From Sandaracinus amylolyticus (lineage in GTDB: Bacteria; Myxococcota_A; Polyangia; Polyangiales; Sandaracinaceae), in the NCBI RefSeq assembly GCF_021631985.1, contig NZ_CP070225.1:10044001-10108000 (forward strand): a DNA stretch of 64,000 bases. The letters are read 5' to 3'. This document shows positions 14,217-53,460 of the stretch, piece after piece. Positions within the stretch are counted from its first letter, which is position 1. The number at the start of each line of letters is the position of its first letter. The notes below the pieces were generated by a model. That model was not told the origin of the DNA and searched no databases. It worked only from the letters and a program-made list of their open reading frames with translations. The position numbers were made by a program, and so were the translations under genes.

Positions 14217-15154
14217 TGCGTGCCAATCGACTCCGATGCTCGATCTACGCGCTCGCGCTCCTCGCGACTGCGTGCACGGAGAGCCTCGACTCTCCGACGA
14301 TCGTGCGCACTCCGCGCATCCTCGCGATCGTCGCTGAGCCTCCGGAGGCCGCGCCGGGCGAGGATCTGCTCGTCGACGCGATGATCTCGATCCCCGAGGA
14401 CGTGGCGCGCCCGCTCTCGCTGCGCTGGCTCTCGTGCATCGACGCGGAGGAGGTGCTGCGCGCCAGCGGCTTCCGCGAGATCGAGCTGCCGGGCAGCCCC
14501 GAGTGCGACGAGCAGATGCTCCCCGAGGGCGAGCCCTACGTCGTGCGCGGCGAGCGCACCGAGGAGCTCGTCGAGACGCTGCGCGACCTCGCGATGCTCG
14601 GCGGCTTCGACGTGATGCTCTTCGAGACGCTGCTCGCGACGACCGGCCTCGCGTACTTCGTCGACGTGCAGGTGCTCGACGCGAACGGCGAGGTCGTGGT
14701 CGCAGGCTTCAAGCGCGTCGCGATGACGACGCGCGAGATGCCGACGACGAACCCGCCGCCGCCCACGTTCCTCTTCGGGCAGACGATGATCACCGCGACC
14801 GGCGAGCCCTTCGACTTCACGTGCGGCGCGGCCGACGGTGTCGTGCCCACGGTCGCGCCCGGCGCGGAGGTCGAGCTCGTCCCGGTGCTGCCCGAGGGCG
14901 CCGACGAAGAGCCCTGGCTCGAGACCTTTCCGATCTTCGACTTCACCGGTGGGCTCACCACCGCGCGCGAGAACGCGTACTACACGTGGCTCGCGACCGC
15001 GGGGCACATCTCGGAGTTCACGACGCGACCGCCGGAGCGCGCGAGCGAGTGGACTGCGCCCGACGAAGAAGGCTTGCAGACGCTGTGGCTCGTGGTGCGC
15101 GACGGACATCTCGGCGGCAGTGCGTGCCGGCTCGACGTCGTCGTCGCCCGCTGA
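14216..15154 (+). CDS. Lipoprotein coupled to the TonB-dependent receptor
   Basis: 312 residues. The ATG overlaps the receptor stop by one base (TGATG), indicating translational coupling. Signal sequence SIYALALLATAC gives a lipobox Cys at about residue 20. The mature protein is acidic and beta-rich with Ig-like spacing (TPRILAIVAEPPEAAPGEDL) and several cysteines. I recognise no named domain. Inference from position: a surface or periplasmic accessory of the preceding receptor. Confidence 0.7.
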   Translation: MRANRLRCSIYALALLATACTESLDSPTIVRTPRILAIVAEPPEAAPGEDLLVDAMISIPEDVARPLSLRWLSCIDAEEVLRASGFREIELPGSPECDEQMLPEGEPYVVRGERTEELVETLRDLAMLGGFDVMLFETLLATTGLAYFVDVQVLDANGEVVVAGFKRVAMTTREMPTTNPPPPTFLFGQTMITATGEPFDFTCGAADGVVPTVAPGAEVELVPVLPEGADEEPWLETFPIFDFTGGLTTARENAYYTWLATAGHISEFTTRPPERASEWTAPDEEGLQTLWLVVRDGHLGGSACRLDVVVAR

Positions 15155-15343
15155 GCGCCTTCGATCGACTCACCTCCTGCGCGACGCGCTGCGTCGAATT
15201 CCGCGGATTGGCGAGGCTCTTGCCACTGCACTGCTGCGTTCCAGTCGCGCGACGAGATCTCGCGTGATCCGGGCGCGCGCGCTCCAGATGCGAAACGCGC
15301 GCTTTGCAGTGATGAAAGAAGCCGACAGTCCGGAGGTGAGTGG

Positions 15344-16228
15344 ATGGAAGCGGATCGGTGGATCGAAGAGCACATCGACGTCGTGCTCGATCACTACGCG
15401 ACGCTGCGCCGAGCCGAGCACGCCGATCCGCGCCCGCCCGAGCTGATCAAGAAGCTGATGGAGCCCACCGTGCGTCAGCTCGTCGCGTCGCTGCGCGGCG
15501 AGTCGCAGTGGGGCGGCTTCATCGAGGAGCTCGTCACGCGCGTGCTCGCCGCGAAGCAGGCGACCGCGGCGAGCGTGTCCGAGGCCGCGCGCGTGATGTA
15601 CCAGGCGGTCCAGCTCGCGTGGCAGGACGTCGACGCCGCGCAGCGCGAGCCGTGGAGGCTCGCGGTCTGCGAGCAGATGCTCCTCGCGAGCGAGCACGTC
15701 GCGTTCAGCCTCGACATGCACCTCGGTGCGCGCATCCGCGAGCGCAACGAGGCGCTCGCCGCGCAGGAGCGCCTGCAGCAGGAGGTCATCGACGCGCAGC
15801 AGGCGGCGATCCGCGAGCTCTCGACGCCGATCATCCCGCTGCTCGATCGCATCATCGTCATGCCGATCGTCGGCAGCGTCGACACCCGCCGCGCGCGCGA
15901 CATCCTGCGCGCGCTCCTCGCCGGCATCCGCGAGCACCGCGCGCAGGTCGTGATCCTCGACGTGACCGGCGTCGCGGTGATCGACACCAGCGTCGCGAAC
16001 CACCTCACGAAGGCGATCGGCGCCGCGCGGCTCAAGGGCGCGCGTCCGATCGTCACCGGGCTCTCCGACGCGGCCGCCGAGACCATCGTCGAGATGGGCA
16101 TCGACTGGAGCGGCATCGAGACGCTGAGCGATCTGCAGACCGGGCTCTCGCTCGCGCTCTCGCTGGTCGGCTTCGAGCTCCGCCGCCGCGAAGGCGCCGG
16201 CGAAGCGCGCGACGCGCGGGCATCGTGA
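15344..16228 (+). CDS. RsbR-like STAS-domain stressosome protein
   Basis: 294 residues, preceded by a strong ribosome site GGAGGTGA (15332-15339). Residues 1-160 form a helical sensor-type region. Residues about 160-275 are a STAS domain with ILDVTGVAVIDTSVANHL and VTGLSDAAAETIVEMGI, the pattern of RsbR co-antagonists. Thr215 and Thr247 lie in the segments where RsbR proteins are usually phosphorylated (inferred from alignment by eye). It overlaps the next gene by 4 bases (GTGA) and opens a five-gene partner-switching module. Confidence 0.85.
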   Translation: MEADRWIEEHIDVVLDHYATLRRAEHADPRPPELIKKLMEPTVRQLVASLRGESQWGGFIEELVTRVLAAKQATAASVSEAARVMYQAVQLAWQDVDAAQREPWRLAVCEQMLLASEHVAFSLDMHLGARIRERNEALAAQERLQQEVIDAQQAAIRELSTPIIPLLDRIIVMPIVGSVDTRRARDILRALLAGIREHRAQVVILDVTGVAVIDTSVANHLTKAIGAARLKGARPIVTGLSDAAAETIVEMGIDWSGIETLSDLQTGLSLALSLVGFELRRREGAGEARDARAS

Positions 16229-16905
16229 TCTCGTCCGGCACGACGAGCGCGCGCTCCTTCGAGCAGATCGTGCGCGGCATCCTCGCCGCGCACCTCGGGC
16301 CGATCCACGCGGACACGGCGGTGATGAGCGCGTCGCGCCACCTCGGGGTGCAGCCGAGCCAGCTCACCGAGCGCGATCGCGATGCGCTCGCGACCGCGCT
16401 CGCGCGCCCGCTCCGTCTCTATCTCGACGAGACGAAGGTGCGGATCGTCCAGCGCGAGATCACGAACGCGCGCGTCGTGGATCACGGCTTCGCGAGCGCC
16501 GGCGAGGAGGCGCCGATGCGCCCGGTCGAGGCGCGGATCCGCGTGGAGGACGACGTGATCCGCGCGCGCGCCGAAGCGCGCGATCTCGCGGCGCGCGTCG
16601 GCTTCGATCCGGTCGACGCGATCAAGATCGCGACCGTGGTGTCCGAGCTCGCGCGCAACATCGTGATGTACGCGGGCACCGGCACGATCACCGTGCGTCC
16701 GCTCGTCGCGGCGCGCGGCCTCGAGATCGAGTCGGTCGACAGCGGGCCGGGCATCGCCGATCTCGACGCGATCCTCGGAGGTCGTTATCGCTCGCGCAAA
16801 GGGCTCGGCCTCGGGATCGCGGGGAGCAAGCGCCTGCTCGACTCGATGGACGTGACCACGGGGCCGACGGGCACGCGCATCGTCGGTCGCAAGAGGGTGC
16901 CTTGA
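16225..16905 (+). CDS. GHKL ATPase / anti-sigma-type serine kinase with N-terminal extension
   Basis: 226 residues from a GTG overlapping the previous stop. Residues about 100-226 are an RsbT/RsbW-type HATPase: N-box VVSELARNIVMYAGTG, G1 box VDSGPGIAD, and GLGLGIAGSKRL. Residues 1-95 are an extra, mostly helical region (HLGVQPSQLTERDRDALATA) not present in minimal RsbT proteins (about 130 residues); I cannot assign it. Expected role: phosphorylating the neighbouring STAS proteins in a partner switch. The next gene starts with a TTG inside the stop region (TTGA). Confidence 0.8.
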   Translation: MISSGTTSARSFEQIVRGILAAHLGPIHADTAVMSASRHLGVQPSQLTERDRDALATALARPLRLYLDETKVRIVQREITNARVVDHGFASAGEEAPMRPVEARIRVEDDVIRARAEARDLAARVGFDPVDAIKIATVVSELARNIVMYAGTGTITVRPLVAARGLEIESVDSGPGIADLDAILGGRYRSRKGLGLGIAGSKRLLDSMDVTTGPTGTRIVGRKRVP

Positions 16906-17528
16906 GCGAGCGGCTCGGCAGCGACGCGTCGGCAGCGGGGCGCATCGCGCGCTTCGAGATCGCGGGCGCCGCGCGTGCGCTGCGCGGCCTCGCGTGTTGT
17001 GGCGACGCATGGGCTGCGATGCCCGCGGGCGCTGCGGGCGTGGTGCTCGCGGTCGCCGACGGTGTCGGTCACGGTGATGCGGCCCATGCGGCGAGCACGC
17101 GCGCGCTCGCGCTGGTGCGCACGCTGATCGCCGAGGACCCGCTGCGCGCGCTCACCGACGTGATCGCGCGCTGCCATGCCGCCGCGATGGGGAGCGTCGG
17201 GCTCGCCCTCCTCGTCGTGCGCGTCGCGCCGAGCGGCGTCGAGCTCTGCGGCGTCGGCAACGTCGAGGTGCGCTCCTGGCCCGCGCGCGAGAGCCGCGGC
17301 GTCTCGTACGCGGGCACGGTGGGATATCGCTATCGCACCACGCGCGCGTTCTCGTCGAAGCTCGAGCGCGGCGACGTGCTCGCGCTCAGCACCGACGGAG
17401 TGCGATCCACGTTCGAGCTCTCGCGCCCCGGTCCTTCTCTCTCGACCTACGTCGCGTCCGCGCTCGACGCGCACGCGCGCGACAACGACGACGCGACGCT
17501 CGTCGTCCTCCGCGACGCCGAGGACTGA
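16902..17528 (+). CDS. RsbX-like PP2C/SpoIIE phosphatase
   Basis: 208 residues. The TTG at 16902 overlaps the upstream stop by 4 bases. The phosphatase fold shows LAVADGVGHGDAAHAAS (metal-binding Asp and Gly), a central VGLALLVVRVAPSGVELCGVGN core, LALSTDGVRSTF and the late DNDDATLVVLRD metal site. This is the compact SpoIIE/RsbX arrangement without sensor domain. Role by family: removes phosphate from the STAS proteins to reset the switch. Sits between the first ATPase and the second STAS gene. Confidence 0.82.
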   Translation: MSERLGSDASAAGRIARFEIAGAARALRGLACCGDAWAAMPAGAAGVVLAVADGVGHGDAAHAASTRALALVRTLIAEDPLRALTDVIARCHAAAMGSVGLALLVVRVAPSGVELCGVGNVEVRSWPARESRGVSYAGTVGYRYRTTRAFSSKLERGDVLALSTDGVRSTFELSRPGPSLSTYVASALDAHARDNDDATLVVLRDAED

Positions 17529-17530
17529 AC

Positions 17531-17896
17531 GTGTCCACGCACATCAAGAAGCTCGAGGATCTGCTCCTCGTGAACGTGCCCGCCGATCTCGCCGACACGC
17601 AGATCCTCGGGCTGCGCCGCGCGATCCTCGCCGGCATCGAGCGCGAGCGTCCGCGCTGGCTCCTGCTCGACTTCTCGGAGGTCGAGATCTGCGACTCGTT
17701 CTTCGGGCGCTTCGTCGAGACGATGGTCTCGATGGCGCGGCTCATGGGCATGCGCGTCGTGGTGTGCGGTCTCTCCGATGCGGTCGTCGAGACGATGGTC
17801 GAGATGGGCTTCGAGCTGCCCGACGTGACCAGCTTGCTCGACATCGACGACGCGCTCGCGTTCACGCGGCGCGCGCGCGCCGTGCAGCCTCGGTGA
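17531..17896 (+). CDS. RsbS-like single-domain STAS antagonist
   Basis: 121 residues, the length of RsbS. The whole chain is one STAS domain: LLLVNVPADLADTQILGL, LLLDFSEVEICDSFFGRFV (Ser56 at the usual phospho-site) and VVVCGLSDAVVETMVEMGF. By family it would hold the ATPase until phosphorylated. The GTG of the next gene overlaps its stop by 4 bases. Confidence 0.85.
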   Translation: MSTHIKKLEDLLLVNVPADLADTQILGLRRAILAGIERERPRWLLLDFSEVEICDSFFGRFVETMVSMARLMGMRVVVCGLSDAVVETMVEMGFELPDVTSLLDIDDALAFTRRARAVQPR

Positions 17897-18285
17897 CGAT
17901 CGTCGTCGCGGTGCGCTGCGACGCCGATCGCGTGCTCGCGGTGCACCGCGCGCGGCAGCTCGCGCGCGGCCTGGGGTGGGGCGATCGGGATCGCTGTGCG
18001 TTCGAGACGATCGTCCTCGAGCTCTCGCAGAACCTGATCGATCACGCGGGGGGAGGGGAGATCCATCTGCGCGGGTGCGAGGACGCGGGGCTCGAGGTGA
18101 TCGCGATCGATCGCGGCCCCGGGATCGCGCGGCTCGCCGATGCGCTGCGCGGCGGAGTGTCTCCGCGCGCCGGGCTCGGAGAGGGGCTCGCCGCGGTGGG
18201 CCGCCTCGGCCACGAGCTGCGCGTCACCACGCATCCGTCGCGCGGCACTGTCGTGCTCGCGCGCCGCTGGGCGCGCGCTCGTTGA
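17893..18285 (+). CDS. RsbT-like GHKL serine kinase
   Basis: 130 residues, RsbT size. N-box IVLELSQNLIDHAGGGEIHL, G1 box AIDRGPGIARL, and a glycine-rich lid SPRAGLGEGLAAVGRLG. Start is the GTG overlapping the RsbS-like stop. The last codons (LARRWARAR) lie inside the first unit of a 38-bp hairpin repeat array, so the C-terminus is encoded by repeat DNA. Inference: released kinase would signal to a target not encoded here. Confidence 0.85.
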   Translation: MTIVVAVRCDADRVLAVHRARQLARGLGWGDRDRCAFETIVLELSQNLIDHAGGGEIHLRGCEDAGLEVIAIDRGPGIARLADALRGGVSPRAGLGEGLAAVGRLGHELRVTTHPSRGTVVLARRWARAR

Positions 18286-18393
18286 GCACGGTGCTCGCGC
18301 GCCGCTGGGCGCGCGCTCGTTGAGCACGGTGCTCGCGCGCCGCTGGGCGCGCGCTCGTTGAGCACGGTGCTCGCGCGGCGCTGGGCGCGCTGA
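18253..18393. repeat. 38-bp tandem hairpin repeat, 3.7 units
   Basis: Units begin at 18253, 18291, 18329 and 18367 (the last partial and slightly diverged). Each unit folds on itself: GCGCGCC - GCTG - GGCGCGC, flanked by GTGCTC and GAGCAC. The first unit is the 3' end of the RsbT-like gene including its TGA; the last abuts the stop (18394-18396) of the opposing TPR gene. It therefore fills the whole gap between convergent genes and could serve as a bidirectional terminator. Confidence 0.9.
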
Positions 18394-19389
18394 TCAGAAC
18401 GTGCCGCGCACTGCGACGCCGGTGGGCGTCACGTGCAGCGACGCGCTCGGCGCCTGCTCGCTCTCGTCGCCGCCCGAGTCGGCGATCACGAGCGCGAGCG
18501 AGACACCGCCGAGCACGACCGCCGACGCGATCATCACGTCGGTCGCGAGGCTGAGCGTGGCGGTCTCGTCGCGCGCTCCCTCGATCGCCGCGCGATCGCC
18601 GGGCACCACGCCGAGCTGCTCCTGCAGACGATCGTGGCTCTGCACCGCGAGCACCCCGGTGACGACCGCGCCGATCGCGACCGCGCCCGTGATCACGAGC
18701 CCGGTGATGCCGACGGTGCGCACCGGATGCGACTCCGAGCGCTGCTCGACCACGACCGTCGCCGCGATCTCGTGCAGCGTCACGTCGAGCTCGGCGGCCT
18801 CGCCGCCTGCGATCGTGATCGTCTCGCGCCACGGCTGGTGCTCGGGCGCGCGCACCTCGATCACGTGGCGGCCCACGTCGACGGGCAGCGGCTCCGCGAG
18901 CGGCGCGCGTCCGACCTCTTCTTCGTCGACGCGGATCTCCGCGCCGTCGACGTTCACGCGCAGCGCGATGGTGCCGGTGCGGCCGCGCAGCGTCGCGATC
19001 GCCTCCTCGACCTGCGCGCGTCGCTCCGCGTCGATGCGCTCGCCGCCCTGCTCCAGATACGCTTCGAACGCTCGCAGGGCCGCGACGTAGTGCCACATCG
19101 CGAGCTGCGTCTGTCCGATGTTGAACAGCACGTTGTAGGTCGGCAGCACGTCGTACGCGCGCTGGAACTCGATCATCGCCGCTTCGTAGTCGCCCTCTTC
19201 GTAGAGCGTCACGCCGCGCCGGAAGTGCGCGCTCGCCTCGAGCCGCTGTGCCTCGGTGGGACCGGCCTCGGTGGGACCGGCCTCGGCGGTCGCTTCGGCG
19301 GCCTGCGCATGCGCGGCGCCTGGCATCGCGCCGAGCATCGAGAGGACGAGGAGCGCCAGAGCCCAGCGCGCGATTCGTGAGGTCGTCAT
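18394..19389 (-). CDS. TPR/PEGA membrane protein downstream of a Ser/Thr kinase
   Basis: 331 residues. Signal peptide (ALALLVLSMLGAMPGAAHAQA), then a short repeated linker (EAGPTEAGPTEA, encoded by a 15-bp direct repeat). Two or three TPR-type helices follow at about residues 45-125 (HFRRGVTLYEEGDYEAAMIE). Then comes a PEGA-like beta domain at about 140-205 (ALRVNVDGAEIRVDEEEVGR) and two C-terminal hydrophobic helices. The ATG at 19389 lies 22 bases after the kinase stop, so the two form an operon. This architecture is common next to kinases in Myxococcota; a signalling or envelope-scaffold role is inferred. Confidence 0.78.
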   Translation of the reverse strand: MTTSRIARWALALLVLSMLGAMPGAAHAQAAEATAEAGPTEAGPTEAQRLEASAHFRRGVTLYEEGDYEAAMIEFQRAYDVLPTYNVLFNIGQTQLAMWHYVAALRAFEAYLEQGGERIDAERRAQVEEAIATLRGRTGTIALRVNVDGAEIRVDEEEVGRAPLAEPLPVDVGRHVIEVRAPEHQPWRETITIAGGEAAELDVTLHEIAATVVVEQRSESHPVRTVGITGLVITGAVAIGAVVTGVLAVQSHDRLQEQLGVVPGDRAAIEGARDETATLSLATDVMIASAVVLGGVSLALVIADSGGDESEQAPSASLHVTPTGVAVRGTF

Positions 19390-19411
19390 GTCCAGTGCGC
19401 TCTCTCGGCAA

Positions 19412-21154
19412 TCAGGGCGTGGCGTAGGGATCGTCGGTGTCGATGGTGGGCAGTCGGCGGCGCGGCGCGACGAGGATCGATCCATCGTCGTCGCTGGCGG
19501 GCTGCGCTTGCGGCTGCGCGACGGGCGGTGCAGCGGGCGGGGCGCTCGGCGTCTCGGCGCGTACGATGGGCGCGCGCACCGGACGCGAAGGACGGCGACC
19601 ACGCTCGTCCTCCTGGGCGACGGGCGCGTCGTCGGGCGCGGCCTGCAGCGCGACGGCGAGCTCGAGATCACGATCGAACGCGAGCGCGCGACGCTCGGTC
19701 ACGTGACCCTCGGCCTGCACCGTGAGCACGTGCAGCGCCGCGTCCGGCGAGAGCGCGACGTCGAAGGGAAGGGCGATGCTCGCGCCGTCGAGCTCGGCGC
19801 GTGCCGTCTCCGGCTGCGCCGAGATGTGCACGCGGATGCGCGCTGCGGGCGCGACGTCGGAGGGCGCGCTCGCGCTGCTGGGTGCAGTCGGCAGCTCGGT
19901 CGATGCGTCCGGCGCCGAGCCCGCGGTGAGCGCGAGCGCGAGCCCGAGCGCGCCGGTGCCCGCCGCGAGGATCACGCCGATCGCGAGCATCGGCGAGGCG
20001 CGCCGGCGATGCGGCTCCGGTCGCGTCCGCGCGTCGGTGCGCACGGCGTCGCGCGCCTCGTCGGAGAGCGCGCGCTGCTCGGGCGAGAACGACGAGATCT
20101 GCTCGGAGTCGCTCACGCGCGGCAGCCGCGCGATCGCGACGTCGGTGGTCTCCGCGCTGTTCGCCAGTCGGATCTGCTGATCGACGAGCACCTGCATCTC
20201 GCGACGCTCGCGCTCGAAGAGCGGCTCGATCAGCTCGCCGAGCAGGCGCGGGTCGGTCGCGGCCGAGGTGTCCGAGAGGTACTCGTAGATCTCCTGCGCG
20301 AACTGCTCCGCCGTCGCCTGGCGATCCGTCGGCTCGAGCGCGAGCGCTCGCTCGCAGATCTCGACGAGCCGCACCGGCGTGTCGGGCGCGACGTCGCGCA
20401 GCTTCGGCTCGTTGCCCGACATGCGATTCGTGATGCGCTGCAGCTCGGGCACGTTCGCGCCCGCGAGCCGCTTCCCGGTGATCGCCTGCCACATCATCAC
20501 GCCGAGCGGGAAGATGTCCGCGCGGTGATCGAGCGTGTCGCCGCGGAGCTGCTCCGGCGGCATGTAGGCGATCTTGCCCTTGAGCATCCCCTCGCGCGTC
20601 AGGCCCTCACCGCCCGCCGCCTTCGCGATGCCGAAGTCGAGCAGCTTCACCTGCCCGTCGTACGAGATCATGACGTTCTGCGGCGAGACGTCGCGATGCA
20701 CGATGTCGAGCGGCGTGCCGTCGTAGCTCTTCAGCGTGTGCGCGTGATGGAGCCCGCGCGCGGTCTCCGCGAGGATCCGCAGCTGCATCGTGAGTGGCAG
20801 TGACTCGGGCGAGAGCCGTCGCTGGATCGCGCCGAGCGATTGGCCCTGCACGTACTCCATCGCGATGAAATAGCGGCCATCGTCTTCCCCGACTTCGTAT
20901 GTCTGCACGACGTTGGGGTGATTGAGCTGCGCCGCGAGCCGCGCTTCCTGGAGGAACGATTGGATGAAGATCGGATCCTCGAGATCCTCGCGCATCATCT
21001 TGACGACGAGCAGCTTCTGGAATCCCGCTGGGCCCTTCGAGAGCGCGAGGAACACTCGCGCTTGCCCACCTTCGCCGAGCAGCGCGATCACGCGATATCG
21101 GCCGATCATGCGGCTGGAAGGCGCCGCCACTTCCGTGTCGTGCGCAATGCTCAT
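19412..21154 (-). CDS. Membrane Ser/Thr protein kinase (PknB-like)
   Basis: 580 residues from ATG 21154 (MSIAHDTEV). Kinase domain residues about 20-290: glycine loop LLGEGGQARVF, catalytic Lys52 (VVKMM), HRD motif at 153-155 with VSPQN, DFG at 173-175, and MPPEQL substituting for the APE motif. A cytoplasmic linker leads to one transmembrane helix (MLAIGVILAAGTGALGLALAL) and a PEGA-like extracytoplasmic part (VHISAQPETARAELDGASI) ending in a Pro/Ala-rich tail. Sensing by the C-terminal part and phosphorylation of unknown targets is expected. Confidence 0.88.
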   Translation of the reverse strand: MSIAHDTEVAAPSSRMIGRYRVIALLGEGGQARVFLALSKGPAGFQKLLVVKMMREDLEDPIFIQSFLQEARLAAQLNHPNVVQTYEVGEDDGRYFIAMEYVQGQSLGAIQRRLSPESLPLTMQLRILAETARGLHHAHTLKSYDGTPLDIVHRDVSPQNVMISYDGQVKLLDFGIAKAAGGEGLTREGMLKGKIAYMPPEQLRGDTLDHRADIFPLGVMMWQAITGKRLAGANVPELQRITNRMSGNEPKLRDVAPDTPVRLVEICERALALEPTDRQATAEQFAQEIYEYLSDTSAATDPRLLGELIEPLFERERREMQVLVDQQIRLANSAETTDVAIARLPRVSDSEQISSFSPEQRALSDEARDAVRTDARTRPEPHRRRASPMLAIGVILAAGTGALGLALALTAGSAPDASTELPTAPSSASAPSDVAPAARIRVHISAQPETARAELDGASIALPFDVALSPDAALHVLTVQAEGHVTERRALAFDRDLELAVALQAAPDDAPVAQEDERGRRPSRPVRAPIVRAETPSAPPAAPPVAQPQAQPASDDDGSILVAPRRRLPTIDTDDPYATP

Positions 21155-21458
21155 CGGACGCCCGCGTGCTCCCCCCACCCAGTCACGTCCACTCCGGAGG
21201 AAATCTCCGCGTGGGCGCCCCGAGCCCGACGACAAAATACCCGCGTCCCAACGCGCGCATCAACCATTCTCCGCCCCCATTTCGTCACTCGCGCGAAACC
21301 GTTCGTACACACGACGCGCGCGGACCACATCCTGGCGCGCGGTGCGAACGAAATGAAATCGATCGTTTGCACGCTCGCGCCGTTCATGCACCGTGAGGCG
21401 CGCGACACCGACTCGGGGTCGCCGACTCGATAGCGAGGCATGGGGGAGAATGTCTGGC
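21155..21458. other. Divergent intergenic region between kinase and glucan operon
   Basis: About 300 bases between two divergent starts with no convincing ORF of coding character. It must hold promoters for both the kinase operon (leftwards) and the glucan operon (rightwards). The segment around 21346-21380 is relatively AT-rich (GAACGAAATGAAATCGATCG) and is the likeliest promoter area, but I cannot define -35/-10 boxes. A ribosome site GGGGGAGA at 21442-21449 serves the downstream gene. Confidence 0.4.
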
Positions 21459-23405
21459 ATGGTGGCCCACCACTCGACCGCCTGCGCGATCATTGCGCTG
21501 GTACTGCTCGGTGCGTGCGGAGGTGACGATCCGGAGACGGACGCGGCGCCCGTCGTCGGGAGTCGGGTGGTGTTGTCGGAGACGACGGCCACATCGACTC
21601 GCGCGACCTGGGGCGCTGCGACCGACGACGTCACGCCGAGCGCAGAGCTCGAGTACAAAGTCGTGATGAGCGCGGTGGCGGCCTCCGCCATCGACAGTGT
21701 CGAAGAGGCGGAGACGGTCGTCGGCGCAGGGCTCGTGCGCGATTGGACGCGCAACCTGCGCAGCGTCGAGATCGTCGGTCTGACGCCGAACACTGCGCAC
21801 TACGTCGCGCTGCTCGTGCGCGACGAGGCGGGCCATCGCGCGCTCTATGCGCCGTCCGCGGTGACGACGGCGCCCGAGCTCTCGGCCGACAATCGCATCA
21901 CGCGCTTCGCGATCACCTCGCTCACGCCCGAGGTGGTCGGTGAGATCGACGCGGACGCGTCGACGATCTCGGTCACGGTGCCGCGCGGCACCGATCTCAC
22001 GGGCCTCGTCGCGACGTTCACGATCGCCGAGGGCGCGAGCGCGCGCATCGGCAGCGTCGCGCAGGTCTCCGGCACCACCGCCAACGACTTCAGCGCGCCC
22101 GTCGTCTACACCGTGACCTCGCAGAACGGCCTGACGCGCGACTACACGGTCGACGTCGAGCTCGCGCCGCCGGCGTCGGAGAAGCGACTCCTCACGTTCG
22201 CCTTCGAGTCGTTCGATCCCGACGCGGTCGGCGACATCGACGAGACGGCGCACACCGTGACGGTGTTCGTGCCGGGCGATGCGGACCTCACCGAGCTCGC
22301 CGCGACGTTCACCGCGACCTCGAGCGCGACGGTGCGCGTGGGCGACGTGGAGCAGGTCTCGGGCACGACGACGAACGACTTCTCGTCGGACGTGATCTAC
22401 ACGGTCGTCGCGGAGGACGGCTCGGAGCAGGACTACACCGTGAGCGTGGAGCAGGGCGCATCGTCGCTCGCCGCGCTCTCCGCGCTGACGCTCTCGCGCG
22501 GCACGCTCGGCGAGACGTTCGATCGCAATCGCACCGAGTACACCGCGACCCTTCGCTCGCCCTCGCTGACCGTGACCGCGACGACGTTCGATCCCGGCGC
22601 GACGCTCGAGATCGACGGCGCGACGGTCGCATCGGGCGCGGCGTCGGCTCCGATCACGATCGCTCACGGCACGCCGCGCACGATCACGATCGAGGTCACG
22701 GCGCCCGACGCGACGACGACGGAGACCTACTCGATCGTCGTCACTCACGAGCACCCGACGATCGTCGTCGAGGCGCCCGGGGGGACCGAGGCCGTCGAGG
22801 ACGCGCACTGGGCCGACGCCGAGGTGTTCACCGACGCGGTCGACGATGCGATCGGGCGGGTGGGCGATCTGCCGCCGGACGTCTCGCTCCTGCGCGTGAC
22901 CAACGACGCGACGAACCTCTACGTCGCGATCTACCTCGCCGGTGGCGCGCGCAAGGGCTGGAACAACGAGGCTTATCTGCTCATCGACACCGGCTCGACG
23001 AGCGGCGCGACGACGTTCACCTCGAATCCTCCTCTGCCCTGGGGCGACAAGGGATTCGAGACGTCGATCACCGTCGACTTTTCGTTCCACGCGCAAGGCA
23101 ACGAGGCCGCCTTCGCCGCGTTCACCTACGTGGACGACGCGACTGCGGGCACCGGCGTCGAGTCGATGATCGGAGCCGACTTCAACTCGAGCGACGGAGT
23201 CCCGTTCTACGCCGAGATCCGGATCCCGCTCTCCCTCCTCGGTGTGAGCGCGGGGAGCACGATCCGCTTGATCACGCTCCAGAACGACTGGGACGGAATG
23301 GCGAACGGCGAGGTCGCCGACGTCCTGCCCGACTCCACCGCACCGCTCACCTCGGGTGAGAGCGTCGAGATGCTGGACCAGCACGTGAGCTACACCATCC
23401 AGTGA
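21459..23405 (+). CDS. Multi-domain glycan-binding-type lipoprotein, first gene of glucan operon
   Basis: 648 residues from ATG 21459, spaced 9 bases from GGGGGAGA. Lipobox LLGAC. Order of domains: a fibronectin-III-like module (about 30-135); two DUF5018-like repeats (about 145-335) sharing the pattern QVSG-T-NDFS-V-YTV; a cadherin-like beta-sandwich (about 340-435, ALTLSRGTLGETFDRNRTEY); and a C-terminal CBM9/DOMON-like domain (DATNLYVAIYLAGGARKGWN, LPWGDKGFETSITVDFSF). It overlaps the amylase gene by 4 bases. Inference: surface carbohydrate binding in support of the amylase. Confidence 0.75.
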   Translation: MVAHHSTACAIIALVLLGACGGDDPETDAAPVVGSRVVLSETTATSTRATWGAATDDVTPSAELEYKVVMSAVAASAIDSVEEAETVVGAGLVRDWTRNLRSVEIVGLTPNTAHYVALLVRDEAGHRALYAPSAVTTAPELSADNRITRFAITSLTPEVVGEIDADASTISVTVPRGTDLTGLVATFTIAEGASARIGSVAQVSGTTANDFSAPVVYTVTSQNGLTRDYTVDVELAPPASEKRLLTFAFESFDPDAVGDIDETAHTVTVFVPGDADLTELAATFTATSSATVRVGDVEQVSGTTTNDFSSDVIYTVVAEDGSEQDYTVSVEQGASSLAALSALTLSRGTLGETFDRNRTEYTATLRSPSLTVTATTFDPGATLEIDGATVASGAASAPITIAHGTPRTITIEVTAPDATTTETYSIVVTHEHPTIVVEAPGGTEAVEDAHWADAEVFTDAVDDAIGRVGDLPPDVSLLRVTNDATNLYVAIYLAGGARKGWNNEAYLLIDTGSTSGATTFTSNPPLPWGDKGFETSITVDFSFHAQGNEAAFAAFTYVDDATAGTGVESMIGADFNSSDGVPFYAEIRIPLSLLGVSAGSTIRLITLQNDWDGMANGEVADVLPDSTAPLTSGESVEMLDQHVSYTIQ

Positions 23406-25468
23406 TCGACGCGCATCTCGCTCGGAGAGCGCTGCTCGCGGCGCTGGCTGTTCTCGCGGGCGCGTGTGGAGGTGAAGCGCCTCCCGCCGTTCCCGACGCC
23501 GGCGTGCCTCGACATCGGGCCAACACCGATGTCGATTGGCGCGATCAGGTCGTCTATCAGATTCTCGTCGATCGATTCGAGAACGGCGATCCCACCAACG
23601 ACGTCAACGTCGATCGCACGCGCGGAGCGCGATATCACGGCGGTGATTGGCGCGGCGTGATCGAGCGCCTCGACTACATCGAGGCGCTCGGCGCGACTGC
23701 GATCTGGATCAGCCCGGTCGTCGAGAACGTCGAGCTCCACGTCGACGCCGCCGGATATCACGGCTATTCGGCGTCCGATTTCACGCGCCCGAATCCGCAC
23801 TTCGGCGATCTCGCGACCCTGCGCGAGCTCGTCGACGAGGCGCATCGGCGCGGGATCCTCGTGGTGCTCGACATCGTCACGAACCACATCGGACAGCTCT
23901 TCTATTACGACGTCGACGACGACGGCTCGCCCTCGTCCGAGATCCCCGGCGCGGGTGTCGCGCACACTTGCACGCGCGTCTGCGAGGCCGGTGCGTGCAC
24001 GGCCGACGAGCTCGCCTACTGCCGCAGCGCGGGAGAGAGCCTCGACACCGTGAACGAGTGGGATCCCCTCTACGATCCGCGCGGCGTGCGCGCGATGGGG
24101 CGGCCCGACGCGCTCACCGAGGTCGAGTTCCTCGACTGGCCCGACATGAACCGTCGCGCGCCGCCGCGCCCTCCGCCGGAGCTCGACTGGCCCGACGATC
24201 TGCCGTGGTTCGACGAGAGCTCTTGGTACCACCGGCGCGGCCGGATCCCGCCCTTCTTCCCAGGGGGAGAGCTCTCTCGCCGCTTCGTGCGAGAGGCGGA
24301 GACGTACTCCGATTTCGGCGGAGGTCTCTGGGGTCTCGACACCGATCAGCCGATCGTCCAAGAGGCGCTGTTCCGCGTCTATGCGCACTGGGTCGAGGTC
24401 GCGGACTTCGACGGATTCCGCATCGACACCGTGAAGCACGTCGATCGGCCGGACCTCGACCCCGACGTGCGCGGCTTCTGGGGCGACTTCGCGCCGCGCA
24501 TGCGCGCTCACGCCGCATCGCTCGGCAAGTCGTCGTTCTTCATGTTCGGCGAGGCGTTCGACGGAGACGACACGCTCGTGGGCGCGTACACGCGGCCTGG
24601 CACCGATGCGCGCGGCGGGTTCGCGCGGCTCGACTCGATGCTGCACTTCTCGAACAAGTGGCGCGTGTTCGACGAGGTCGTCCGTGACGGCGGCCCGACG
24701 CGCAACGTCGAGTGCGTGCTCGCGGCGCGACGCGGCGCCGCCGAGGAGATCGAGTGGTGTCGCGGCCGCGGCTTCGCGACCGGCGCGACCTACCACACGC
24801 GCTCGGTCGCTTCGCGTGAGCGCGGCGGGACGGGCGTCGCGCCGAGCGAGCAGCTCGTGACGTTCATCGACAACCACGACGTGCCGCGATTCCTGAGCAC
24901 GGGTGCGAGCGTGGAGTCGCTGCACGCCGCGCTCTTCCATCTGCTCACGTGGGACGGAGTGCCCTGCCTCTATTACGGCACCGAGCAGCTCTTCGACGGC
25001 GGCGCCGATCCCGCGAACCGCGAGGACATGTGGGACGGCAATCCTGCGCGCGGGCTCGCGCCGTTCGACACCGAGAATCCGACGTTCGAGCACGTCCGCT
25101 CGCTGATCGCGCTGCGGCGCGCGCATCCCGCGCTCCGTCGCGGGCGCACCACGATCCGCTGGGCGACCGACCGCGAGCGCGGCGCGTCGGACCACGGTCT
25201 CCTCGCGTTCGAGCGCGAGACCACGGACGAGACGCTGCTCGTCGTGCTCAACACCGCGGCCGATCAGACGTCGACCACGTGCACGACGCCCTCGACGCCG
25301 AGCACGTGCATGCGCACGTCGTTCGCGCCCGGTACGCAGCTGCGCGACATCGCCCCCGGCGCCCGAGACTCGACGCATCGAGTCGGTGAGGGTGGTACTC
25401 TGATGCTGACCGTGCCCGCTCGGAGGGGGATGATCTTCGCGCGCGTCGGTGGCGAGGACGAGCCGTGA
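23402..25468 (+). CDS. GH13 alpha-amylase/cyclomaltodextrinase-like lipoprotein
   Basis: 688 residues. GTG start overlaps the upstream stop (GTGA). Lipobox VLAGAC. The GH13 barrel shows all four conserved regions: DIVTNHIG (about 157-164), DGFRIDTVKHV with nucleophile Asp342, FMFGEAFDGDD with acid/base Glu384, and FIDNHDVPRF with Asp493. A long insert (about 175-305) between regions I and II includes several cysteines. It hydrolyses alpha-1,4-glucans such as starch or maltodextrin; cell-surface location is predicted from the lipobox. The stop overlaps the next gene start by 4 bases. Confidence 0.92.
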   Translation: MIDAHLARRALLAALAVLAGACGGEAPPAVPDAGVPRHRANTDVDWRDQVVYQILVDRFENGDPTNDVNVDRTRGARYHGGDWRGVIERLDYIEALGATAIWISPVVENVELHVDAAGYHGYSASDFTRPNPHFGDLATLRELVDEAHRRGILVVLDIVTNHIGQLFYYDVDDDGSPSSEIPGAGVAHTCTRVCEAGACTADELAYCRSAGESLDTVNEWDPLYDPRGVRAMGRPDALTEVEFLDWPDMNRRAPPRPPPELDWPDDLPWFDESSWYHRRGRIPPFFPGGELSRRFVREAETYSDFGGGLWGLDTDQPIVQEALFRVYAHWVEVADFDGFRIDTVKHVDRPDLDPDVRGFWGDFAPRMRAHAASLGKSSFFMFGEAFDGDDTLVGAYTRPGTDARGGFARLDSMLHFSNKWRVFDEVVRDGGPTRNVECVLAARRGAAEEIEWCRGRGFATGATYHTRSVASRERGGTGVAPSEQLVTFIDNHDVPRFLSTGASVESLHAALFHLLTWDGVPCLYYGTEQLFDGGADPANREDMWDGNPARGLAPFDTENPTFEHVRSLIALRRAHPALRRGRTTIRWATDRERGASDHGLLAFERETTDETLLVVLNTAADQTSTTCTTPSTPSTCMRTSFAPGTQLRDIAPGARDSTHRVGEGGTLMLTVPARRGMIFARVGGEDEP

Positions 25469-26883
25469 AGACGAGACACGAGTCACGAGGGGGATGTGTG
25501 CGAGCGATCGACGGACGGATTGGCACTCTCGTAGCGAGCGGATTGGCGCTCTCGCTCGGCTGCTCCGTGGTGCTCGACACCACCGCACGACAGTGCGACT
25601 CGGACTCCGACTGTCGCCGTGCGAGCCCCTCTCTCTCGCTCGCGTGCGTCGATCACGTCTGCGTCGAGCGGGACGGCGGTGTGCAGGAGTTTCCGATCGT
25701 CGTCGACGATCACTTCGAGCCCACCGGGTTCCGCGGCGATCCGGTCGAGGCGTCGGTCGATTGTCCGGTGCGCGCGACCGGCGCCGAACAGCGCGGCGAT
25801 TGCCACGTGATCGCGTACGACCCCTCGGCTCTCGAGGAGTCGGCGAACTACGCGAGCGTGACGTGGCAGAGCCCCGGCGGGAACTGGGGTGACGAGTACG
25901 GCTTCGCGATGCCGAGCGACGCGCGCTCGGTCTCGTTCTATGCGTGGGCCGACGTGGCGGGCGCGAACGCGGTGTTCGGCGTCGGTCATCGCGACGGCGA
26001 CGGCTTCGAGCTGCGCACCCCGCCGATCGCGCTCGGCACCACGCCTCGGCAGTACTGGATCGACGTCACCGACACCCAGTACGACGACGTCGCGAACGGC
26101 TTCACGCTCGAGCTCGCCGCGCCCTCGAGCGGCGCGGTGCGGCTCTTCGTCGACGACATCGTCTGGGACGAGATGCCGCCGCCGGCGCCGCCGGTCGACG
26201 TGACGTTCCAGGTCGACATGACCGCGCGTGCGCTGCCCGACGGCTGCACGGTCTACGTGTACGGCACCTGGAACGACTGGGCGCTCGACGCGGACGCGAC
26301 GATGTCCGACGCCGACGGCGACGACGTCTTCACCGCGACCGTCACGCTGCCGGTGGGCGCCGCGGTCCGCTACAAGTTCGCGTACTCGTGCGGCGACATG
26401 CGTTATCCCGAGACGATCCCGAACGGCTCGACGTGCGGTGTCGACGGTGGTGACTACCTCGATCGCGCGCTCACGCCGGCCGAGACCGCGACGCTGCCCA
26501 CCGTGTGCTTCGGTGCCTGCGAGGGCTGCGACGGACAGGTCGACGTCACGCTCCAGGTGGACCTCGGCACGATGACGCTGGGCGCCGGCTGCACCGTGCA
26601 CGCGCCGGGCGTGTTCAACGACTGGAACCGCGGCGCGGCGGTCATGACGAACACCACCGGCAACGTGTACGCGATCGGCGTGTCGATGCCGGCCGGCCTG
26701 GTCCAGGAGTACAAGTTCGCGATCGACTGCCCCGGGCAGAGCACGCGCTGGGAAGAGCCTCCGCTGGTCGAGGGCTGCACGGTCGCGTCGGACGGCGGCT
26801 ATCGCAACCGCGCGTACACCGCGTCCGGCCCGATCACGCTCGATCCCGTCTGCTTCGGCACCTGCGCTCCCTGCGGCACCTGA
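25465..26883 (+). CDS. Starch-binding-like lipoprotein, third gene of glucan operon
   Basis: 472 residues from the coupled GTG at 25465; a second GTG at 25498 (VRAIDGRIGTLVASGLALSLGC) has a better ribosome site, GAGGGGG at 25487-25493, and gives a cleaner lipoprotein signal. Residues about 60-235 are a beta-sandwich of carbohydrate-binding type. Then come two CBM20/starch-binding-like repeats (about 240-355 and 360-472), sharing VDVTFQVDM / VDVTLQVDL, GTWNDW / GVFNDWNRG and YKFAYSC / YKFAIDC. Inference: holds starch at the cell surface for the amylase. Confidence 0.78.
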   Translation: MKTRHESRGGCVRAIDGRIGTLVASGLALSLGCSVVLDTTARQCDSDSDCRRASPSLSLACVDHVCVERDGGVQEFPIVVDDHFEPTGFRGDPVEASVDCPVRATGAEQRGDCHVIAYDPSALEESANYASVTWQSPGGNWGDEYGFAMPSDARSVSFYAWADVAGANAVFGVGHRDGDGFELRTPPIALGTTPRQYWIDVTDTQYDDVANGFTLELAAPSSGAVRLFVDDIVWDEMPPPAPPVDVTFQVDMTARALPDGCTVYVYGTWNDWALDADATMSDADGDDVFTATVTLPVGAAVRYKFAYSCGDMRYPETIPNGSTCGVDGGDYLDRALTPAETATLPTVCFGACEGCDGQVDVTLQVDLGTMTLGAGCTVHAPGVFNDWNRGAAVMTNTTGNVYAIGVSMPAGLVQEYKFAIDCPGQSTRWEEPPLVEGCTVASDGGYRNRAYTASGPITLDPVCFGTCAPCGT

Positions 26884-53065: not shown

Positions 53066-53183
53066 GGGGACACACACTCCTTCCTGGTTCGGCCCGCGTT
53101 TCGTTCGCGAGTGCCCCCCTCATCGGAGCTGTGGTTCCGGCGTTGCGTCGAAAATCGACGCGACGCGATCTTCCTCGGCGCGG

Positions 53184-53460
53184 GATGGGCCGGAGCCATC
53201 GACGGCGTTTTCAGAATCGACCGGCGATGGGTCCGACCTATCGGCGGCGATTTTGGAAACGAGGAGGGAAGGGTCGGACCTATCGGCGACGATTTCGAAA
53301 TCGATCAGGCATGGGTCGGACCTATCGCCGGCGATTCTGAAATCGATCGGGCATGGGTCGGACCTATCGCCGGCGATTTGAAGACGATCGGGCATGGGTC
53401 GGACCTATCGGCGGCGATTCTGAAATCGATCGGGAAGGGTCGGACCTATCGGATCGACCC
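53184..53460. repeat. 41-42 bp minisatellite, about seven units
   Basis: Units anchored by the GGGTCGGACCTATCG-like motif start near 53187, 53229, 53271, 53313, 53355, 53396 and 53437 (spacings 42, 42, 42, 42, 41, 41). The unit core reads GGGTCGGACCTATCGCCGGC, followed by GATTCTGAAATCGATCGGGC with variation; one copy contains the palindrome GATTTCGAAATC. Units are contiguous, with no spacers. No convincing protein is encoded; the 546-base gap 53066-53611 otherwise holds nothing I can identify. Confidence 0.85.

Follow-up and report, generated by a model that had tools for sequence, protein, structure and literature searches.

A 38-bp tandem array that very probably expanded from the coding tail of an RsbT-like gene

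The window, by which we mean the whole 64,000-nucleotide stretch of DNA analysed here, comes from a soil bacterium and holds a 38-bp tandem array between an RsbT-like gene, of a stress-signalling type, and an opposing, convergent gene. This array is very probably a young, lineage-specific minisatellite that expanded from the 3'-terminal part of the RsbT-like gene. It offers a clean example of the last codons of a gene giving rise to intergenic spacer; a sister species still shows the single-copy state, and the same genome holds at least one parallel.

Structure of the array and of the genes that flank it

The RsbT-like gene closes a series of STAS, HATPase and SpoIIE-type phosphatase genes recognised by Pfam (the SpoIIE match, at 24.4 bits, falls slightly below the Pfam cut-off of 25), and its GTG start overlaps the stop codon of the STAS gene that precedes it. 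The first-pass annotation had proposed that the first unit of the array encodes the final residues and the stop of this gene, and translation of the reading frame at 17893-18285 agrees: the last 10 codons and the stop codon fall inside unit 1 (Table 1). Tandem Repeats Finder places the array at 18253-18390 with a period of 38, 3.6 copies, 99% matches and a score of 269. Units 1 to 3 are identical, while the fourth comprises 24 nt (18367-18390), one of them substituted, and TGA comes next at 18391-18393. This last copy ends RWAR*, and the minus-strand stop of the opposing TPR/PEGA gene (18394-18396) comes immediately after its final TGA, the abutting stops reading TGATCA. The earlier description of a gap filled with exact copies is therefore accurate for units 2 and 3 and inaccurate for the last copy, which is partial and changed.

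Table 1. Features of the array locus (positions in the window).
Feature	Position	Strand	Details
RsbT/HATPase-like gene	17893..18285	+	Pfam HATPase_c E 3.8e-06; 130 residues
Unit 1, 38 bp (GTG CTC ... CGT TGA GCACG)	18253..18290	+	gene end, stop 18283-18285
Unit 2, identical copy past the gene stop	18291..18328	+	own TGA at 18321, other frame
Unit 3, identical copy	18329..18366	+	own TGA at 18359, third frame
Fourth unit, partial, then TGA	18367..18393	+	abuts opposing stop (TGA/TCA)
Opposing convergent gene, TPR and PEGA-domain protein	18394..19389	-	Pfam PEGA E 2e-09, TPR_2 E 3.7e-08

The array is real. A 31-mer spanning the junction between units has three matches in the window, with up to three mismatches allowed, and none in 100 dinucleotide shuffles of it, so that the array is not a product of chance. 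With the same tolerance, a 37-mer of the unit finds three matches in the 10.96-Mb genome, all of them within the array. Tandem repeats can be miscounted, and the extra copies might in principle have been introduced during assembly; we consider such an artefact very unlikely, given that the array, at 141 bp, is far below long-read length, that its last copy carries changes of its own and that unit 1 is conserved in the sister genome.

Because the stop codon sits in unit 1, the RsbT-like protein is unchanged and the extra copies form an untranslated spacer. Phase variation of this protein was considered and rejected on the sequence, as copies that follow the stop in unit 1 cannot shift its frame. 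The stops of the three full units (18283, 18321 and 18359) lie in three different frames, since 38 is not a multiple of three. A gene tail recruited as a multi-hairpin spacer between near-touching convergent genes, with a stop in every frame, could be imagined as a boundary element. We hold this to be distinctly improbable, and until shown otherwise the three-frame stops are a by-product, since any unit of non-triplet length that carries a stop does the same. The arrangement also carries a warning for annotation, in that tandem copies of a gene tail yield spurious ORFs in all three frames.

A single copy of the gene tail in the sister genome

The orthologue of the RsbT-like gene in the sister genome (G001; 87% protein identity, E 2.5e-67) has the same protein end, VVLARRWARAR*, and carries the tail in a single copy. 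The convergent stops are 3 nt apart in this genome (TGA, GCG, opposing stop) and 108 nt apart in the window, and the interval between the aligned flanks is 33 nt as against 138 nt in the window genome (G000). Having found the same residues in single copy, with a gap of 3 rather than 108 nt, we conclude that the array looks like a lineage-specific expansion. The proposal that the array originated from the 3' coding end of a gene is thus borne out, and its suspected variation in length is seen between species, as one copy against 3.6 in the single orthologue compared.

The locus itself was detected only in these two genomes in a DNA search of 10 genomes of the family, nine of which gave some match, those in the other family genomes being short and low-scoring. 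The remaining relatives yielded just distant homologues (about 32-44% identity) with different C-termini, and an orthologue scan of further genome contigs returned one locus only, from Pseudomonas (39% identity), which is uninformative for the junction. The polarity of the expansion is accordingly read from one sister, the sole single-copy orthologue here. The junction reads TGAGCGTCA in the sister genome and TGATCA at the last copy of the array; the last copy could keep the older junction, with the sister genome reduced from an older two-copy state, which is a less simple account than expansion from a single copy.

A further difference between the two genomes lies about 92 bp from the array. 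The sister genome is without an 8.3-kb stretch that corresponds to window positions 18485-26803, the alignment jumping across it within about 13 nt, and retains at this place only a remnant of approximately 30 codons from the 3' end of the opposing PEGA gene.

Hairpin folding and the question of a terminator

Each full 38-bp unit is predicted to fold at -24.4 kcal/mol (z -2.9; none of 200 shuffles reaches this), a stability matched by 54 of 21262 38-mers sampled from the window. The single copy of the sister genome folds at -20.7 kcal/mol, within the top 1.9%. For the fourth, partial unit the predicted fold is weak, at -12.9 kcal/mol when taken in a 38-nt frame. Taken as a whole, the plus strand of the array does not stand out clearly (z -1.6; 10 of 200 shuffles fold as well); the minus strand exceeds its shuffles in stability (z -3.5, 0 of 200). 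The inner stem, GCGCGCC/GGCGCGC, consists of the conserved codons for ARRWAR. The outer stem, GTGCTC/GAGCAC, is perfect and coincides with the unit boundaries, while the sister genome has GTCTTG/GAGCGT instead. That this outer stem is private to the window lineage and sits at the unit boundaries might mean, against the minisatellite reading, that the hairpin itself was favoured.

In the first-pass annotation these hairpins had been taken for the tandem duplication of a terminator, a view that our results do not support. The inner stem is coding and the outer stem is missing in the sister genome; on the plus strand neither the array nor the sequence that follows it has a run of more than two T, and the minus side has no A-run beyond a single nucleotide. 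A terminator scan of positions 15000-22000 found nothing at the array, its single terminator-like site lying elsewhere with 0.9 expected by chance, and Rfam gave no family at the array, with two sub-threshold matches elsewhere to worm and trypanosome snoRNA models (E 0.12 and 0.61). On the combined evidence of the coding inner stem, the outer stem absent from the sister genome, the missing T-runs and the negative scan, a duplicated terminator is unsupported.

The repeated hairpins could also be envisaged as insulating both convergent genes, either by terminating transcription in both directions or as a roadblock, with more copies making the effect stronger. The two genes do converge with their stops facing, the full unit folds well, with few 38-mers of the window its equal, and the minus-strand array surpasses its shuffles; the plus-strand array, however, does not clearly do so, neither strand has a T-run, and no terminator-like site lies at the array. 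Moreover, no such device is needed in the sister genome, where the tail is present as one coding copy and the stops are 3 nt apart. We therefore judge insulation of this kind improbable, and a regulatory role for the array finds no support.

Origin of the array and comparison with other repeats

The copy structure, the single copy in the sister genome and the unchanged protein end are established directly, and the route from one state to the other may be pictured as follows. An ancestor resembling the sister genome would have had one copy of the tail, nearly touching the stop of its convergent neighbour, in which the conserved ARRWAR codons happened to form a GC-rich stem. Slippage in replication, or template switching, at this hairpin-prone tail could have produced a 38-bp duplication, and more slippage among the identical copies might then have led to the three complete units and the incomplete fourth. 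Slippage is probably the mechanism, in keeping with general knowledge of tandem repeats. The array probably has no functional consequence; here we infer the absence of an important function.

Tandem arrays are common in the window genome. Four 400-kb stretches of the window genome (1.6 of 10.96 Mb) contain 15, 6, 5 and 6 high-identity arrays, 32 in all (at least 94% match, period of at least 18), and one 400-kb stretch of the sister genome contains 11. Around the window, a 400-kb stretch holds 39 merged arrays of any identity with a repeat score of at least 80; both flanks of 23 of these were located in the sister stretch, with the array differing in length in 15 cases and the same in 8. A second gene-end duplication was found at G000:C1:10171215-10171261, where the last codons and TGA of a convergent gene are doubled (24 bp x 2, 100%) and are single in the sister genome; TGATCA is present at this junction also. 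With 32 arrays and a second gene-end duplication in evidence, the 38-bp array is an example of something that this genome does habitually. Gene-end arrays were counted as 2 of 32 in the window genome and 1 of 11 in the sister stretch, numbers that are unreliable and may be too low because the crude gene calls missed the RsbT-like gene and the test did not flag the 38-bp array itself; one window-genome case, at 1077773, looks on inspection by eye like a hairpin element and not like the copy of a gene's tail. The part of the literature that was accessible to our search contained nothing on gene-tail arrays of this kind in myxobacteria.

A further array occurs in the window at 53181-53452, with a 42-bp unit present 6.6 times at 82% matches and with GGGTCGGACC and GATTTNGAAATC-like palindromic parts. 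A 41-bp array of similar appearance, with GGGTCCGACCC, is found in the sister genome at 8147942-8148382.

It is exceedingly unlikely that the 38-bp unit is a mobile, dispersed palindromic repeat of the REP type that landed at the gene end. The genome does contain another dispersed hairpin family, often in tandem, but the three places that match this unit genome-wide (up to three mismatches) all lie in the array and there is no excess of weaker matches in 1.6 Mb, two results on which a dispersed repeat was ruled out. The best relative of the unit in 1.6 Mb agrees at 29 of 38 positions, as compared with a mean of 27.7 and a maximum of 30 in shuffles (n=40). Furthermore, the sequence of unit 1 is conserved in the sister genome as the end of the gene.

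The other hairpin family has the consensus CCGTCCGCGCGCTTCGCGCGCTCCCG and, with up to two mismatches, 189 copies in the window genome and 91 in the sister genome. No copies occur in G002, G003, G005 and G007, and a reversed-pattern control gave none; it is a REP-like family that is present only in the window and sister genomes among the six tested. Its copies are often in tandem, with a spacing of about 77-100 bp (for example at G000:C1:184076 and G001:C1:1040542).

Comparison with known systems sets the array apart from two of them and brings it close to a third. It resembles intrinsic (Rho-independent) terminators in having a GC-rich stem-loop at a gene end, and differs in that neither strand has a U-tract and the stem overlaps and flanks the stop codon, with a coding inner part. 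Like the array, REP/BIME and MIRU elements consist of short or palindromic repeats that stand at the ends of genes; they are dispersed over the genome, whereas the 38-bp unit is confined to one locus. Bacterial minisatellites, or VNTR, consist of almost identical units, some tens of bp long, arranged head to tail; their copy number differs among relatives and their last copies are degenerate. Although its unit is a gene tail with a stop and its variability is seen between species only, the array shares with these minisatellites both its head-to-tail units (3.6 copies, 99%) and a copy number that differs from that of the sister genome.
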